Below, piece by piece: positions 6,001 to 60,747 of a DNA stretch of 64,000 nucleotides. Positions within the stretch are counted from its first letter, which is position 1. Every line of letters starts with the position of its first letter. A model generated the notes under the pieces. The model saw only the letters and a program-made list of their open reading frames with translations. It ran no database searches and was not told the DNA's origin. Position numbers and translations under genes: made by a program. The stretch is from Acidobacteriota bacterium. GTDB taxonomy: Bacteria > Acidobacteriota > Blastocatellia > UBA7656. The stretch lies in the NCBI GenBank assembly GCA_038040445.1, contig JBBPIG010000018.1, positions 62,001 through 126,000 on the forward strand, written 5' to 3'.

Positions 6001-7719
6001 GTTCCACTGACGGCGGCGGTGGAACAAGTAGAACCGCTCCGCCGCGGATTCGCTGTAATGCGCATTCAACTCTGCAACACCCCGGGTCGCGGCTTCCAGC
6101 ACACCGTCATCATCGGCCATTTCCGCCTGGGGGGCATCGGCAAAATCCCCCAGAAGCGCAAAATAAATATTCTCATCTCGATTTGCCAGATAGTGCACTT
6201 CCATTCTTTCGAGAAGAGTACGCACAGTTTCTTCGTTCGAGAAAATGGTTGGGATCACGACGAATGTTCGGGCGGTTTCCGGTATACCCGAGGAGGCGTT
6301 CATCTTTGGAAGCGGCTTTGGCTTGAAGAGGACGGTTATGTCGAGGTTCAACGCGCTCAGCACCAGATCGCTAATCGGGACAAGCAACAGCAAAGCGATT
6401 ACAACCAACGCTGCTTGAGAAGCACCCGACACAGACGCATACAAGAGAAACGGCGCGAGAATACCTATCGTCACTACCGTGAACGTTCCCAGATATGAAC
6501 CTGTTGGATGTCTGAGCACACCCCGAACGATCCGCTCGCGCAATCGCATGCGATAGTGGACTTTCTGTTCTAACTGGGCGCGGCCCCGATCGATCAGATA
6601 GTAGCCAACGTGCTGTGTGCGATGATCGTCTGACGCTGAGTCCGGTGGCTGCCCGGCCAGCGCCAGTGCGTGACGGGCGATGTCCTGCTCGGACTCTTTT
6701 GTGCGCTTGGAGATGTTCTCAATAACATGGCGATAGCGATCACGCGTCACGAAGTCCATCAGAGAGTAGGCGCCGATTGGGTCTCCGGCCAGTATCGGAT
6801 CTATCTGGCTGACACTCTCGAAGAAATCCTTCCAGTCAAGCGTTGAAAGCAACCGCATGCTGGTGATGATGTTTCCTACGGTGACTTGAGTAGCGGCTTG
6901 CCTTTGATGCTCGAGATGAACAACCTGCTCGATGGCTGTAGACTCGCTCGCGAGTTTTTTTTCTATCCAGTCGAGCGCCGGCCACACTTCCGGGTCTTGA
7001 TCGCGAAGCCGCTGCGTAAGCTGAACGATGAACGCCCGATCATTGCGGCGGCCCTTTCCCATCGCCGTTTGAAGGGCCGAGATCAGCTCGTCGGGCTCCC
7101 GTCCGCCAATCTCCAGGAGCTTGTCCGCCAGTTTATCGGCCTCCTCTCGCGCATTGCGGGCTGAGACTATGCGGGTCCCAAGACGCCGCAAGTTCTCGAC
7201 CAGAGCGACTCGCAACGTGATTGCAATCGCCCACAGCTCACCGATCGAGAGAGGCGTTACCTGCTGATAGGAACGGATGAAGCGCCTGAGGGTGTCGGCG
7301 TCCAGACGACTGTCGGTGTGAGCGATCAAGGCCAGCGCGATCGCATAGACGCGCGGATAGCCGGCCAGTTCTCCGCTTTGAAGCTTGGGCAGCTCTTTGT
7401 AATAACCCTTGGGTAGGTCCCGGCGGATCTCGCGAAGTTGTTCTTCGACGATATGAAAATTGTCGACCAGCCATTCGGCAGCGGGCGAGACGATACTCTC
7501 ATTGCGAATGGCCTCGGCGAGCGCACGATAGACGGCGATCAGCTTGCGGCCGTTCTCTTCTAATCGGGGAAGAAGCCTCCGGCCGCGCCCTGGTTTGGAA
7601 GATACCTTGTGCGCGGCGGCCAACTCGGCCGCATATTGTTCAAGACGCTCGACGCTGAATAACTCTTCCCGAATCGGGTCTTCATCTGAATTACTGTCAG
7701 AACGACTTATTCGGTCCAA
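1..7719 (-). CDS. ndvB: Cyclic beta-1,2-glucan synthase, C-terminus outside window
   Basis: Giant membrane enzyme of the NdvB/ChvB type, which polymerises UDP-glucose into cyclic beta-1,2-glucan. About 2573 codons are open without a stop on the minus strand up to the left edge. The N-terminus carries the family signature DPIREELFSVERLEQ at about residues 18-32. The GT84 glycosyltransferase signature ITLDSDTQLPRD lies near residues 620-632 (5824-5859). The glycoamylase-like domain shows TSPTDIGLLLLS near residue 1040 and FHGHFLNWYDTKTLTPLTPQ shortly after. The last visible part is GH94 phosphorylase-like (VQHWWHPPTGRG near 150-200). Family members are about 2800-2900 residues, so roughly 250-300 residues are missing and the GH94 catalytic region cannot be checked. 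An in-frame stop at 7735-7737 leaves TTG at 7717-7719 as the likely start, behind an AGGGT-like ribosome site. Function is inferred from motifs. Confidence 0.93.
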   Translation of the reverse strand, partial: MDRISRSDSNSDEDPIREELFSVERLEQYAAELAAAHKVSSKPGRGRRLLPRLEENGRKLIAVYRALAEAIRNESIVSPAAEWLVDNFHIVEEQLREIRRDLPKGYYKELPKLQSGELAGYPRVYAIALALIAHTDSRLDADTLRRFIRSYQQVTPLSIGELWAIAITLRVALVENLRRLGTRIVSARNAREEADKLADKLLEIGGREPDELISALQTAMGKGRRNDRAFIVQLTQRLRDQDPEVWPALDWIEKKLASESTAIEQVVHLEHQRQAATQVTVGNIITSMRLLSTLDWKDFFESVSQIDPILAGDPIGAYSLMDFVTRDRYRHVIENISKRTKESEQDIARHALALAGQPPDSASDDHRTQHVGYYLIDRGRAQLEQKVHYRMRLRERIVRGVLRHPTGSYLGTFTVVTIGILAPFLLYASVSGASQAALVVIALLLLVPISDLVLSALNLDITVLFKPKPLPKMNASSGIPETARTFVVIPTIFSNEETVRTLLERMEVHYLANRDENIYFALLGDFADAPQAEMADDDGVLEAATRGVAELNAHYSESAAERFYLFHRRRQWNPVEREWIGWERKRGKLHEFNRLLRGARDTSYVVATAGPDFLSGVRYVITLDSDTQLPRDSARRLIGAAIHPLNQPRLDPRVNRVTEGYGILQPRVSMTLTSASHSFFARIMSGHTGMDPYTTAVSDVYQDLFGEGSYTGKGLYNVDAFEAALADRVPENLLLSHDLFESLYARAALVTDIELLDDYPSQYDSYAKRQHRWTRGDWQIARWLFPWVRDAHNRPVRNRLPLISRWKILDNMRRSLVAPTVLLWLAAAWTILPGSAVFWTVAILVILAFPVYAHVTNALLLHPRGIPWTSHFWSVWGDFRTNTAQFGLSLTFIAHQAYLQTHAIAVTFYRKLISKKKLLEWVTAAQAERGSAHDLLAFWQFMWPAEVLTVAIAVAISLTKPGAALLASPFLILWAASPLIAYWVSQDLPKKDEALEANDKAMARLVARRTWKFFEAFVGEEDHWLPPDNYQEDPRPAVAHRTSPTDIGLLLLSTAAARDFGYIGTLEMVERLELTLATLKKLDHFHGHFLNWYDTKTLTPLTPQYVSTVDSGNLAGHLLALKQCCIEVADQTVFDVRAIEGLRDTISLMRDEAARIGAVRQSTGAVTLEQLREEIDLCVSSLHDEPPDTLSGWLGLFQTLSKRMGEIDDIANALAQEHGSAQFEQLNSWTRALMHQLREHRRDLAILTPWTWGLTAPIEPTIVSCSEEVAAEWKRIAGSLDRVPTLYELPAICDEARARFAELQKIVEQCSSPNRAKALRGLGALTSHLEQSSRTATELTARYAELARRSQEMIDTMDFRFLFDEDRKVFVIGYNVTDGSRDNSYYDLLASEARLGSFIAIAKGDVPQEHWFHLGRAFTQVDGSRALVSWTATMFEYLMPRLVMRAYPDTLLDQTDRAVVARQIEYGSERGVPWGVSESAYNARDLQLNYQYGPFGIPGLGLKRGLSDDLVISPYSTVLAAMVEPRAALENMRRLAREGALTGYGFYEAIDYTKDRLQPDQKNAFIRAFMTHHQGMILVALDNVLNDKAMQQRFHSEPLVQATELLLQERIPRGVALARPRAEEVRSDGTRSGLSAPDPRRFLSADLPTPRTQLLSNGVYSVVVTTAGCGYSACGGIAISRWREDVTRDNWGSFCYLRDVRSGAVWSAGYLPIPGKPQSYEVALAEDKAEFRRSDAGIVTRTEIIVSPEDNTELRRVRVTNNTNRSRDIELTSYMEVVLAPGAADAAHPAFSNLSVETEFIASESGLLATRRRRSPNEEEVWGLHVVVVDGETVGAVQYETDRARFIGRGHTTADPVAVMEGRPLSNTVGAVLDPIFSLRHRVRLGTGETACITFATGIAHSRDEALRLADKYHNPYAFEREAGLAWTKAQVEMRHLQMDADEAHLFQRLAGRLLYSDPSLRPRSHVLELNTRDQSALWAYGISGDLPIALVRISEESNLGIVRQLLRGHEYLRLKGLVFDLVVLNDHPASYVQSLQDEVQRLVRMSGSQALIDKPGGVFLRRSDLIPEADRILLHAVARVVIVADRGPLEEQLVQRPDEDDLPARFVARAASRKYPEQTLQDPDLAFFNGLGGFSQGGREYVTVLAEGQWTPAPWLNVISNSKDFGFQISETGSGYTWSVNSRENRLTPWSNDPVSDPPGEAIYLRDEETGETWSPTPLPIRESERYLIKHGQGYSLFEHASHGINQELLAFVPMDAPVKISLLRLRNETERKRRISVTSYAEWVLGVERSRMAPYIITEVDNVTGAIFARNPFNNEFAHRVAFVDMSEKDRSITCDRKEFLGRNSSPASPAALGRVTLSGRVGAGLDPCAAMQAVVELLPDEEREVVMIIGEGDSVEEARATAAKYKQVAVAKQAIEQVIAHWDELLETVEVKTPDPAMDTMLNRWLLYQTLSCRVWARSAFYQSGGAYGFRDQLQDVCALVYAKPQIAREQILRAAARQFKEGDVQHWWHPPTGRGVRTRCSDDLLWLPFVTSFYVKVTGDESVLGESVPFLEAPLLAEGANESYTQPLV

Positions 7720-7832
7720 TGAACCCTCGAAGAATTACCGGAAGCTCTTCCTATGTAGATACGAGACGAACACTAAAGCGTGAGCTTCAGCATACCATGA
7801 TACGCGGTGTAACTTCAGGCCGGGAGTTGTTT

Positions 7833-8057
7833 GGTAGTGTCCTAATCTTGTGTTGATCTTTGCAGGTGCCCTGGCGCACGGCCGATGACGGGCGACGGAA
7901 TATTTGGACTGCGGCGGCCTTTGTGCGTTGCCGCCGCTTTTGGTTATCGCCCACGAAACGACAGAAAGCGGTGGCAACGCAAAGACGCCACCGCAGTCCA
8001 AATACGCGGTCGCCCCGATAGTGTCCTAGTCGACCAACACAAGATTAGGACACTACC
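7833..8057. mobile_element. MITE-like element, family A copy 1, carrying a nested repeat
   Basis: A 225-bp non-coding element. It is bounded by 23-bp perfect terminal inverted repeats (7833-7855 and 8035-8057) starting GGTAGTGTCCTAATC. It is flanked by the 8-bp direct repeat AGTTGTTT at 7825-7832 and 8058-8065, the classic mark of transposition. It contains no open frame of its own and must have moved with a transposase supplied in trans. The centre is enlarged compared with the 62-bp copy at 38184-38245 because a second palindromic repeat (family B) sits inside it. It occupies the divergent promoter region between the glucan synthase and the gene at 8221. Confidence 0.85.
7890..8015. repeat. 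Family B inverted hairpin pair (REPIN-like), copy 1
   Basis: Two inverted copies of a unit beginning TTTGGACTGCGG face each other across a spacer of about 30 bp. Each arm is itself a hairpin. The left stem is GCGGCGGC/GCCGCCGC (7911-7918 with 7930-7937). The right stem is GCGGTGGC/GCCACCGC (7968-7975 with 7987-7994), a compensatory C:G to T:A change that keeps pairing. Outer arms GGGCGAC and GTCGCCC close the structure. It interrupts the MITE around it; the short repeat GAT on both sides is compatible with insertion, but the exact junction is uncertain. Confidence 0.75.
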
Positions 8058-8220
8058 AGTTGTTTCGGGGTGCCCTCACCCGAGTTGAGCCGAGGCATTG
8101 CTCCATCCGGTCAAATGAGGTAAGTTTCCCGCATCACCGGATTGCGATTGCTCTGAGCAGAAGGTCGTCTTTCAATGCGCAATCTGAAATCCGCAACCTT
8201 AGATTGGAAGAGACCCGGCT

Positions 8221-9270
8221 ATGGCAGTCAGCTTCCAGCCGACTTCGAAACTCGCGGTTAACTTTGCCGACAATCTCTGCCGATGGGACGGCACAAGGGC
8301 GCCTCATTACGAGGTGTGGTTTCTGACACTCAATCATCGCGCCTCGCAACGGGGCTTCTGGTTTCGCTACGCATTGGAATGGCCGGCGGTTTCAGAGCGT
8401 GACTCTAAGCCAAACGGGTCCTTGTGGGCCGCCGGGTTCTGCCGAGCTTCCCCGGAACAGAATTTCGGAGTGAAACGTGAGTATCCGATCGACCAGTTCG
8501 CCTTCGAAGGCCGGGAAGAATTCAGGCTGACGCTTGGCGACGGTCTATTCTCTTCCTCTCGCGCGTCGGGCAGGGTGGACACTGGCGGCCATTGCGTTGA
8601 GTGGGACTTAAGCTATGAACCGTGCCAAACGACTTACCATCACGTGACTCGAACCCTGGTTCGACTCGCGAGGCCTTCATCTTTTGTGTGCTCGCCGAAT
8701 CTGGACGCGAGTTTCAGCGGCACAATTGTAATCGACGGCCGGCCTATCATTCTTGAAGACGAGCCGGGCTGCCAATCGCACCTGTGGGGCCGGAAGCACG
8801 TTGACGATTGGGTCTGGGTTCATTCGAACGCGTTTGAGAATCATCCTGGCACTGTGTTTGAAGGACTCGCCGCGAAGCCGCGCCGGGCAGGCCGCACGCT
8901 TCCCCCGGTTCAATCCCTGTACCTGCGCCACCGAGGGGAAGAGCACCGCTTCGTGCGGCTGCGACTAGCCGAGCAATGGCAGCGCAAGCTGGGAATGGGC
9001 TACTGGTCGTTCTCTGCGATGAACGCTCGCGTCTATATCGAAGGCGCAGCTCAATGCCGATTACGCGATATGCTCCAGGCCGAGTACTCGGACCCGGACG
9101 GCGAGCGGTTGTACTGCATCAATAGCGAGGTGGCGAATCTGAAGATCAGGTTGTTCCGGCGGGTTCATGGGCTTCGCTGGCGGCACGTCGAAACGATCAA
9201 GGCTTATGCGACGGCACACGTCGAGCACGCGTCGCGAATGATGGACGGCGGAGTCGCGGTCGCCTTTTAG
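8221..9270 (+). CDS. CrtC/AttH-like lipocalin-fold protein (tentative)
   Basis: 349-residue protein without a signal peptide or membrane segment. The sequence is rich in aromatic residues and has features I associate with the hydroxyneurosporene synthase (CrtC)/AttH/tocopherol-cyclase-like lipocalin fold. Examples are GFWFRYAL near residue 46, a GTIVIDGRP-type strand near residue 173, and the segment HVDDWVWVHSNAF near residue 197, where such proteins place substrate-pocket residues. The fold assignment comes from memory of the family pattern and the substrate cannot be stated. The gene stands alone, divergent from the glucan synthase, with MITE copy 1 upstream and MITE copy 2 just downstream. 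The ATG at 8221 has only a weak purine-rich leader. No carotenoid or tocopherol genes are nearby, so a role in those pathways is not supported. Confidence 0.5.
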   Translation: MAVSFQPTSKLAVNFADNLCRWDGTRAPHYEVWFLTLNHRASQRGFWFRYALEWPAVSERDSKPNGSLWAAGFCRASPEQNFGVKREYPIDQFAFEGREEFRLTLGDGLFSSSRASGRVDTGGHCVEWDLSYEPCQTTYHHVTRTLVRLARPSSFVCSPNLDASFSGTIVIDGRPIILEDEPGCQSHLWGRKHVDDWVWVHSNAFENHPGTVFEGLAAKPRRAGRTLPPVQSLYLRHRGEEHRFVRLRLAEQWQRKLGMGYWSFSAMNARVYIEGAAQCRLRDMLQAEYSDPDGERLYCINSEVANLKIRLFRRVHGLRWRHVETIKAYATAHVEHASRMMDGGVAVAF

Positions 9271-9318
9271 TGCTTCCAACGGACTGCATCTGTGCTCGTT
9301 GTTCTGACAAGAGCCGTG

Positions 9319-9347
9319 GGTAGTGTCCTAATTATTAGGACACTACC
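9319..9347. mobile_element. Minimal 29-bp MITE, family A copy 2
   Basis: A perfect palindrome: 14-bp arms GGTAGTGTCCTAAT and its reverse complement around a single T. It is flanked by the perfect 8-bp direct repeat GAGCCGTG at 9311-9318 and 9348-9355. The arms are the outer 14 bp of the terminal repeats of the copy at 7833. The element is therefore either an internally deleted copy that kept only its ends or a minimal transposable unit. It lies 41 bp before the start of the DUF433 gene, where a hairpin could influence that promoter or leader. Confidence 0.88.
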
Positions 9348-9387
9348 GAGCCGTGTGCTAGATTCACTCTAAAGCTAAGGAGCCAAT

Positions 9388-36836: not shown

Positions 36837-38114
36837 CTACTTGCTCTTCGAATAACTCACGCGCCAGATCTTGTTCGCACCATCGTCCGTGATCAGCATC
36901 GAACCGTCCTTCAACACCAGCAAGCTGACCGGCCGGCCCCACACTTCCGCTTTGTCTTCTCCAAGCATCCAGCCGGTGACGAAATCATCGTAGCCGCCCA
37001 CCGGCTTCCCGTTCTTGAATCTTATGCGAATGATCTTGTAGCCGGTGCGGTTCGTGCGATTCCACGATCCGTGCAACGCTACAAACGCGTCGCCCTGGTA
37101 GTCAGACGGAAACGACTTGCCTTCGTAGAAGACCATACCCAGAACCGCTGAATGAGCCTGAATCAAAACGTCCGGCACAACCGCTTTCGCCACAAGGTCC
37201 GGGCGCTCGTCTTTGCGACGCGGGTCCTCGTGTTGACCGATGTATCCGTAAGGCCAACCGTAGAACGCACCGTCTTTGATAGCCGTTACGTATTCCGGAA
37301 CCAGATCCTCCCCGATCAGATCGCGCTCCTCGACCGCCGCCCAGAGCTGTTTAGTCGTCGGGTTCCACGCAAGTCCGACAGGATTGCGAGTACCGCTCGC
37401 GTAGATGCGATGACCCGTCCCGTCGGGATTGTATTCGGAGATCGCCGCGCGGATCGGCGGTTCGCCCGCGTTCACATTGGACCCAGAGCCGACGGCTACG
37501 TACATCTTCGTGCCCGCCTGATTGAAGATCACGTTGCGAGTCCAATGTCCGGGCCCGCCGGGAAGCTCAGCAATCTTCTCGGGCTCGCCCGCGGCCTGGG
37601 TCTGACCCGACTTGTACTTGAACCGCACGATGCCGTTGATATTGCCGACATAAAGGTAGTCGCGCCAGAATGCGAGCCCGAACGGGCGTGTTAGACCCGT
37701 AGCGAACACGAACCGCTCGTCGACCCGGCCGTCGCCGTTCGAATCACGCAGGATCGAGACGCGGTTGGCTTGCGGTTCACTGACGAACACATCCCCGTTT
37801 GAAGCAAGCGCCATCGACCGCGGCTGCTGCAAATCGCCTTCGGCAAAAACGTCGATCTGAAAGCCCGGCGGCAGCGTCAACTGCGCGCCCTCCGGCCTCG
37901 GAATGACGCGCGACTGATTGCGCGGCCCAGTGAGCACCTCCGGTGGCGGCAGGTCCGAGACCTTTATGTCATAGTGGCGAAGCTCGTTTGGCCGCGAGGT
38001 CTTTATCGGCGACTGTGCGCAGGAGAAACCGACTAGGATGAAGGAGCCAACGACCAGAACCGAGACGCATGCAAAGGCCCATCTGATTGAAGCAGCGACG
38101 TTCCTAAATCTCAT
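36837..38114 (-). CDS. Sorbosone/glucose-dehydrogenase-type beta-propeller protein
   Basis: 425 residues from ATG 38114, chosen because GGAGGTAAGA directly precedes it. Signal helix at about residues 13-33, ending near FSCAQS. The propeller shows the soluble PQQ glucose dehydrogenase/L-sorbosone dehydrogenase pattern: LPPGFQIDVFAEGDLQQPRS, GDVFVSEPQANRVSILRD, RPFGLAFWRDYLYVGN, IYASGTRNPVGLAWNP, and WNRTNRTGYKIIRIRFKNG with a closing MLITDDGANKIWRVSY. Expected to be periplasmic and PQQ-linked, substrate unknown. A family A mobile element sits 70 bp upstream in the divergent promoter region. Confidence 0.88.
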   Translation of the reverse strand: MRFRNVAASIRWAFACVSVLVVGSFILVGFSCAQSPIKTSRPNELRHYDIKVSDLPPPEVLTGPRNQSRVIPRPEGAQLTLPPGFQIDVFAEGDLQQPRSMALASNGDVFVSEPQANRVSILRDSNGDGRVDERFVFATGLTRPFGLAFWRDYLYVGNINGIVRFKYKSGQTQAAGEPEKIAELPGGPGHWTRNVIFNQAGTKMYVAVGSGSNVNAGEPPIRAAISEYNPDGTGHRIYASGTRNPVGLAWNPTTKQLWAAVEERDLIGEDLVPEYVTAIKDGAFYGWPYGYIGQHEDPRRKDERPDLVAKAVVPDVLIQAHSAVLGMVFYEGKSFPSDYQGDAFVALHGSWNRTNRTGYKIIRIRFKNGKPVGGYDDFVTGWMLGEDKAEVWGRPVSLLVLKDGSMLITDDGANKIWRVSYSKSK

Positions 38115-38183
38115 TCTTACCTCCGAGCTGGATATCGATGTGTTACACAATTCTCCCACAAAGCGAGGCGAATCAAAAAGGTT

Positions 38184-38245
38184 GGTAGTGTCGAAATCTT
38201 GTGTTGATACTGTCTAGTCGACCTACACAAAATTAGGACACCACC
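38184..38245. mobile_element. MITE, family A copy 3
   Basis: 62-bp imperfect palindrome with ends GGTAGTGTC and GGACACCACC. The core shares CTTGTGTTGAT and TAGTCGACC with the copy at 7833. It is flanked by AAAAGGTT (38176-38183) and AAAAGTTT (38246-38253), an 8-bp direct repeat with one mismatch. The larger number of mismatches suggests an older insertion. It lies between divergently transcribed genes. Confidence 0.8.
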
Positions 38246-38313
38246 AAAAGTTTGGGGGGAGGCTCGAGCCCTTTTCTTGTGCCCGCGGGCTGTCGATCAT
38301 TTATAATCGGGCA

Positions 38314-38493
38314 ATGCCGAAGCGACAGATCGGGGTGGAAGTTTTGATAGAAGACCATCTCTGGAGCGAAGCTCAAAGCCAATACGTGTATTCGTTTCGC
38401 TGCCCGGCCTGCAGCCAGTTGAGACTCATCCCCGAACTTGGAATCTACCGATGCGACTGCGGCTCCTGGCTGATCGTAACCAATCAGAGATGA
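38314..38493 (+). CDS. Small zinc-ribbon-like protein
   Basis: 59-residue open frame, ATG 38314 to TGA 38491. The C-terminal half reads FRCPACSQLRLIPELGIYRC then DCGSWL: C-x2-C and C-x-C pairs about 15 residues apart, as in a small zinc ribbon. The N-terminal half is acidic and aromatic. No strong ribosome site is seen, but codon use and the ordered Cys pairs argue for a real gene. Possible role: DNA/RNA or protein binding. It is followed directly by a heptamer-repeat hairpin. Confidence 0.6.
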   Translation: MPKRQIGVEVLIEDHLWSEAQSQYVYSFRCPACSQLRLIPELGIYRCDCGSWLIVTNQR

Positions 38494-38499
38494 GAGAAT

Positions 38500-38657
38500 G
38501 ATGCGTGATGCGTGAAACGTGATGCGTGATGCGTGATGCGTGAAACGTGATGCGTGATGCGTGATCGCGACTCGTGCGGCGACAATGATAGTATCCGGTC
38601 TGTCACGCATCACGCATCACGCATCACGCATCACGCATCACGGTTCACGCATCACGG
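38500..38657. repeat. Heptamer (GTGATGC) repeat hairpin, family E copy 1
   Basis: Tandem GTGATGC units with occasional GTGAAAC variants (38500-38565) face an inverted tandem array (38603-38657) across about 37 bp. It would form a long hairpin between the zinc-ribbon gene and the VOC gene. Other copies are at 52246-52356 and 62167-62392. Confidence 0.82.
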
Positions 38658-60614: not shown

Positions 60615-60715
60615 TTTGGACTGCGGCGCGGTCTTTGCGTTCGCGCCGCTTTCCATCTTGTCTTCTATCATTCAGCCAACGCGGCGCGAACGCACAGACC
60701 GCGCCGCAGTCCAAA
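60615..60715. repeat. Family B inverted hairpin pair (REPIN-like), copy 2
   Basis: TTTGGACTGCGGCGCGG... faces its inverse across about 30 bp. Each arm has an 8-bp hairpin stem GCGGCGCG/CGCGCCGC (60623-60630 with 60642-60649, and 60681-60688 with 60700-60707). The stem sequence differs from copy 1 at 7890, yet pairing within and between arms is kept. It lies between tyrS and the M20 gene. Confidence 0.82.
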
Positions 60716-60747
60716 TAGGCCGCGTACGCGTTAGGATGAGGAGCCCG

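Follow-up and report, generated by a model that had tools for sequence, protein, structure and literature searches.

Three intergenic palindromes with common ends, each flanked by a short direct repeat (Table 1), occur in the 64,000-nucleotide stretch of acidobacterial DNA analysed here (the window; positions 62001-126000 of contig C18 in a 6.75 Mb draft genome of 72 contigs). They raise the question of whether such elements were distributed by transposition and, if so, which kind of transposase would recognise their ends.

A family of palindromic elements in the window and the genome

The first-pass annotation had described the three palindromes as a three-copy MITE family with 8-bp target-site duplications, located in front of genes and in two cases between divergent promoters. 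Direct reading of the sequence confirmed the palindromes, their shared ends and their flanking repeats, as well as the genomic setting: site 1 lies between a minus-strand gene starting near 7719 and a plus-strand gene (8221-9270), site 3 between a minus-strand gene (36837-38159) and a plus-strand gene at about 38314, and site 2 is flanked by two plus-strand genes. Eight end-like sites are found in the window at up to 3 mismatches, against 1.42 expected, and none of 100 shuffles reached this number. Short direct repeats of the GTGATGCGTGA type were also seen at 38497-38600, immediately downstream of the small gene starting near 38314.

Table 1. Coordinates of the MITEs in the window and of IS1-like remnants and transposons elsewhere in the same genome
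Feature	Position	Strand	Remarks
Element 1, full-size MITE	7833-8057 (225 bp)	+	non-coding; terminal inverted repeats of 26 bp at 7833-7858 and 8032-8057
Element 1, left 8-bp target-site duplication	7825-7832		AGTTGTTT; direct sequence reading
Element 1, right 8-bp target-site duplication	8058-8065		AGTTGTTT; direct sequence reading
Element 1, inner palindrome	7890-8015		arms 7890-7940 and 7965-8015, 84% complementary; core TTTGGACTGCGGYGG
Element 2, 29-bp palindrome	9319-9347		two 14-bp ends plus one base
Element 2, left target-site duplication	9311-9318		GAGCCGTG
Element 2, right target-site duplication	9348-9355		GAGCCGTG
Element 3, 62-bp internally deleted MITE	38184-38245	+	both ends retained
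Element 3, left target-site duplication	38176-38183		AAAAGGTT
Element 3, right target-site duplication	38246-38253		AAAAGTTT; 7/8 versus left
Truncated clade A transposase	C5:120971-121657		without N-terminal part; one recognisable end, no second
Decayed 2.1-kb IS1-like transposon	C5:131902-134005 (L146:4103-6206)		duplication ACAATTGG; SfiI-like restriction enzyme and N6/N4 methyltransferase
Intact IS1-like transposon, clade D	C14:103250-106708		duplication GAGCCGCG; HigBA-type cargo

The count of three copies holds for the window; the genome contains at least 26 two-ended copies, in forms of 212-226 bp, 92 bp, 62 bp and 29-33 bp. The 14-mer end itself was found at 62 genomic sites with at most 1 mismatch, as opposed to none when the pattern was reversed as a control. 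The 225-bp element has about 20 complete or almost complete relatives, which share 83-96% identity with it (divergence from the window copy, 4-17%); partial copies are also present, and several contigs terminate within a MITE. Members of the family have the ends GGTAGTGTCCTAATCTTGTGTTG..., their terminal repeats are 26-27 bp long (96% complementary in copy 1), and the full-size MITE folds as one long hairpin (z = -14.7).

Flanking duplications are exact (8/8) in 13 of the 26 copies, reach at least 7/8 in 19 and are absent from five, and no swapped duplications were found among the copies without one. When the left flank of each copy was paired with the right flank of another, the best of 650 pairings matched at 6/8 and none reached 7/8. 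The duplicated length is 8 bp, with none of the 13 perfect repeats extending to 9 bp; a 9-bp duplication surrounds a 32-bp palindrome on contig C69, and the copy on C21 has a near-perfect 12-bp flanking repeat (11/12). Transposition with 8-bp duplications, a proposal that would fall if most copies lacked such repeats, is thus upheld genome-wide. Target sites have no visible consensus, and only 6 of 25 are situated inside a frame that runs for 250 codons or more without a stop, compared with 74% of random nearby positions; the insertions are mostly intergenic and avoid reading frames. In the nearest genomes compared (G001 and G005), alignment of the flanks of the window MITEs stops past the coding part, the intergenic flanks not being conserved. 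The elements, being short (29-226 bp), non-coding and bounded by inverted ends, with duplications of fixed length at independent sites, are a transposed MITE family.

Other repeats accompany the family. The core of the inner palindrome occurs at 73 genomic sites with at most 1 mismatch; since many of these are outside MITEs, a second repeat family has apparently been incorporated into the MITE. A separate intergenic palindrome of about 100 bp in the window (60615-60717; TTTTGGACTGCGGCGCGG...CCGCGCCGCAGTCCAAAT) has the same core and is devoid of MITE ends. A second set of elements, about 145 bp long and with ends GGTAGTGTCCTAA[C/G]TTCAATT..., is represented by C5:15877-16022 and C46:24205-24348 and by single ends at C13:50189, C16:99117, C36:7604 and C20:79137; no clear duplications were visible where both ends were seen.

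Transposons sharing the MITE ends

A 23-bp end pattern, allowing up to 3 mismatches, was searched in 39 genomes, mostly of relatives. Genome G032 contained exactly two matching sites, which turned out to be both ends of a single 3,544-bp element flanked by a perfect GTCTGAGA duplication and carrying an IS1-like transposase; the sole site in G008 is likewise the end of an element with an IS1-like transposase. Further loci were then gathered by transposase search, with ends picked by inverted-repeat match alone (at least 18/24 matching) and with regions wider than the 1.5-kb flanks, beyond which the second ends lay (elements of 3-5 kb). In this first set, exact 8-bp duplications were found at 17 of 23 loci and exact 9-bp duplications at 2 of 23. 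A second collection, from contigs of GTDB genomes, comprised at least 565 transposase relatives, the best 80 of which yielded 57 loci with such ends, 48 of them with an exact 8-bp duplication; four elements (L281, L282, L284 and L287, also present under G handles) are common to both sets. The same ends and an 8-bp duplication were recovered in three of four plasmid records (Acidiphilium multivorum, Mesorhizobium loti, Hoeflea sp.). Transposase matches without verifiable ends (G124b, G131c, G016, G003b and contig-edge cases) were not counted, and a TIR-domain cargo gene in G129b was dropped as evidence owing to two conflicting choices of ends.

The closest parent, the 5,180-bp element G112a with the duplication GGAATTCC, has ends identical to those of the MITE at 22/23 and 21/23 positions; the corresponding values are 21/23 in G081 and 20/23 in G032. 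Similarity between MITE and parents is confined to the ends, the interior of the MITE matching no parent. For the G032 element, located upstream of a gene read as metK, insertion is shown directly: at least eight congeners possess the conserved left-flank block and metK separated by just a short variable spacer, without the element. The duplication sits inside this variable spacer, so the exact pre-insertion 8-mer is unreadable. In the same left flank of G032 and its congeners, at about 1503-1530 of L152, the block TTACATAATCTCTATTATCAGACGCA hardly varies within the genus, although the adjoining spacer is unconserved; the block resembles a Xer/dif-type site.

The transposases of these elements are single-frame proteins of 270-343 aa with conserved residues D107, D179 and E244, and no overlapping InsA/InsB' pair with a frameshift was present. 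They match Pfam DDE_Tnp_IS1 at 27.6 and 29.4 bits (gathering threshold 24.1), and the best full-length NCBIfam model is that of IS1, at 81.8 and 97 bits, below the cut-off of 100. A profile of the transposase had no sequence match among solved structures, and NCBI annotates its relatives as IS1 family transposase.

All verified parent elements exceed the length of a simple IS and contain additional frames. The 65 elements with verified duplications that were used for the cargo analysis measure 1,604-6,033 bp (median 3,459 bp), and clustering of their 191 passenger frames gave 147 clusters, which shows how variable the cargo is. G+C content is lower in the element than in its flanks in 62 of 64 cases. 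Recurrent cargo includes P63C-domain proteins (7 elements), PD-Lambda-2_B-like HTH/M78 proteins (5), STAND/AAA ATPases (3) and DNA methyltransferases that have an Mrr-type domain (3). Type II restriction-modification, a ClpP-like protease and many unannotated genes are also carried. A small protein of 70-100 residues ending in ...KGGxARAxxLSxxxRxxIAKKAAxxRW (hereafter the RW protein) was found in 11 elements of the first set, its motif being 204-256 bp from one element end. The protein is encoded at L231, L228, L229, L239, L147, L154 and other loci, and the copies scanned fell into no Pfam or NCBIfam family; one plasmid record names a small gene at this position 'histone H1'.

End types track the clades of the transposase tree, with 7 label changes against a mean of 11.5 after shuffling (none of 200 shuffles was as low), and clades B, C and D each form one starred branch. 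Clade A elements have the inner end motif TGTGTTG or TGTGGTG, 8-bp duplications and transposases with a zinc ribbon, and the MITE ends are of the clade A type. Clade B elements (TTTGAAATC) have 9-bp duplications; the C69 palindrome, which has the centre AATTTGAATT, shares this duplication length. The earlier remark that no transposase family known for 8-bp duplications is encoded alongside the MITEs is correct for the window and does not extend to the genome, where the matching clade is represented by a truncated transposase and another clade (D) by an intact transposon, the only intact IS1-like one found there (Table 1). The truncated protein groups weakly (support 86/72, below 95) with that of G003, an element that has AATCTTGTGT in its ends in common with the MITE. 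Searches of the genome yielded no intact transposase of the matching clade; with just the truncated one at hand, the MITEs are probably stranded, and hence now immobile there, unless an intact copy falls in an assembly gap.

Proposed mobilisation and decay of the elements

We consider it very likely that the MITE ends are recognised in trans by an IS1-like DDE transposase from the cargo-carrying clade that agrees with the MITE in its ends and in its 8-bp duplication. Such a protein would bind the ends of the MITE, pair them and insert the element, mostly between genes and without a fixed target sequence, at a staggered cut of 8 bp; repair of the gaps would then give rise to the 8-bp duplications. 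The MITE itself would have originated from this clade, and internal deletion would yield its short forms.

IS1595, IS256, ISL3 and IS66 also make 8-bp duplications, and it was from these families that the first-pass annotation drew its candidates. Equal duplication length is what they have in their favour, and IS1595 additionally has an N-terminal zinc ribbon of the type found in IS1 (NF050000 match). The ends of the elements lead elsewhere, however, namely to transposases whose best full-length model is IS1 (97 and 82 bits). IS1595 scored 21 bits against an NCBIfam cut-off of 75 in one protein, with no DDE_Tnp_IS1595 Pfam match, and no full-length model of IS256, ISL3 or IS66 reached its cut-off in the transposases scanned; the one model bearing the name of IS256 that did so describes a 4-Cys zinc ribbon. 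At the level of sequence models the four families are excluded, and we regard mobilisation by any of them as very improbable. Even less credible is the idea that the elements are palindromes of the REP/BIME type that a Y1 (RAYT) transposase has mobilised. Like REPs, the elements are short, palindromic and mostly intergenic, and the GTAG near their ends could be read as the tag of a known class, the GTAG REPs (PMC3733652); their inner palindrome may itself be REP-like. Nevertheless, transposition of the RAYT/IS200 type produces no target duplication (as PMC8944449 states for IS200/IS605), whereas 19 of the 26 MITE copies have one (at least 7/8) and their ends match those of DDE transposons. The target duplications rule out the REP/RAYT explanation for the outer element.

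An IS1-like mobilisation leaves room for different accounts of the smallest forms and of present activity. The 62- and 92-bp copies retain both ends without the middle of the 225-bp form and, as far as their sequences tell, are internal deletions of it. Five palindromes are just 29-33 bp long, and the proposal of shrinkage down to hardly more than the two ends, supported in part, fits them less well than the 62- and 92-bp copies: most of their centres are not derived from the 225-bp form and differ from one another, and the perfect 29-bp palindrome, sought in 162 genomes of the class, was found only in the window. With duplications of 8/8, 7/8, 7/8 and 9/9 at four of the five, and with such dissimilar centres, these palindromes could be independent mobile units, the smallest transposing form. 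We think this unlikely, given that the perfect form recurs in none of the other genomes searched, that ends one base apart would leave little room for a synaptic complex, and that internal deletion in place already accounts for the 62- and 92-bp copies; with moderate confidence, we regard the 29-33-bp palindromes as what shrinkage has left of longer elements and not as a minimal form that moves. As to the stranded state of the family, an intact clade A transposon hidden in an assembly gap might still mobilise the MITEs today. The 72-contig draft, in which contigs end inside MITEs, and the 13 duplications that are still perfect lend this some weight; against it stand the divergence of the copies and the sole clade A transposase found, from which the N-terminal part and a second end are missing. 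Continuing activity appears doubtful, albeit a possibility to be reckoned with, and loss of mobility in this genome is the reading that we retain.

Relation to known mobile elements and implications

Classical IS1 elements encode InsA/InsB' with a frameshift within about 0.7-1.2 kb, whereas the parents described here have a single transposase frame, measure 1.6-6 kb and contain unrelated passenger genes; GGT ends and duplications of 8-9 bp are common to both. Single-frame IS1 groups exist, and lengths in the ISMhu11 group of IS1 range from about 0.9 to 4.6 kb. In the literature searched, we found no mention of ISMhu11, nor of the IS1 family in combination with antiphage defense, cargo and transposon. 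ISAba3, of the IS1 family, shares GGTRGTG-type ends with the parents, which have the DDE domain of the IS1 model; ISAba3-like copies have a 24-bp TIR, GGTGGTGTTTCAAAAAGTATGCTG, and an 8-bp duplication around the unit that they bound, Tn6645 (PMC6382973).

The relationship between MITE and parent has a precedent in MITEs that a co-resident IS mobilises in trans, such as MITEAba12 with ISAba12, where a short non-coding MITE with terminal inverted repeats and fixed-length duplications is homologous to the IS at the ends only (PMC6382973). All of these features recur here; the differences are that an IS1-like cargo transposon making 8-bp duplications takes the place of the IS, that no intact parent of the right clade was found in the same genome, and that the MITE has extreme forms of 29-33 bp. 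Tn7-like transposons likewise have fixed ends and, between them, a variable cargo in which defence genes occur (PMC8649781). The parents described here are much smaller, rely on one small IS1-like DDE transposase with an 8-bp duplication, and the list of their cargo families includes no TnsABC-type genes. REP/BIME sequences differ from the MITE in that the latter has target duplications and DDE-transposon ends.

The MITE family is in itself ordinary, and no new class is claimed; what is unusual is the widespread occurrence of its cargo-carrying IS1-like parents. On balance, we lean slightly towards the view that the MITEs point to an extensive and hitherto undescribed group of IS1-like transposons with variable cargo (in several cases phage-defence or toxin-antitoxin genes), often an RW protein near one end and strict 8-bp duplications, distributed in Acidobacteria, Planctomycetes, Alphaproteobacteria, Nitrospirae and other phyla. 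If this is true, the group would constitute a compact vehicle for defence genes, hidden behind the record name 'IS1 family transposase'. The MITE ends lead to a signature, consisting of GGTAGTG ends, an 8-bp duplication, an IS1-like DDE protein and often an RW protein, which delimits mobile units of 2-6 kb to the base in many phyla. Because these units carry restriction-modification systems (including the SfiI-like pair in the genome studied here), PD-Lambda-2-like genes, STAND-type ATPases, a ClpP-like protease and many unannotated genes, searches based on the signature could reveal new defence or addiction modules and help to explain their movement.
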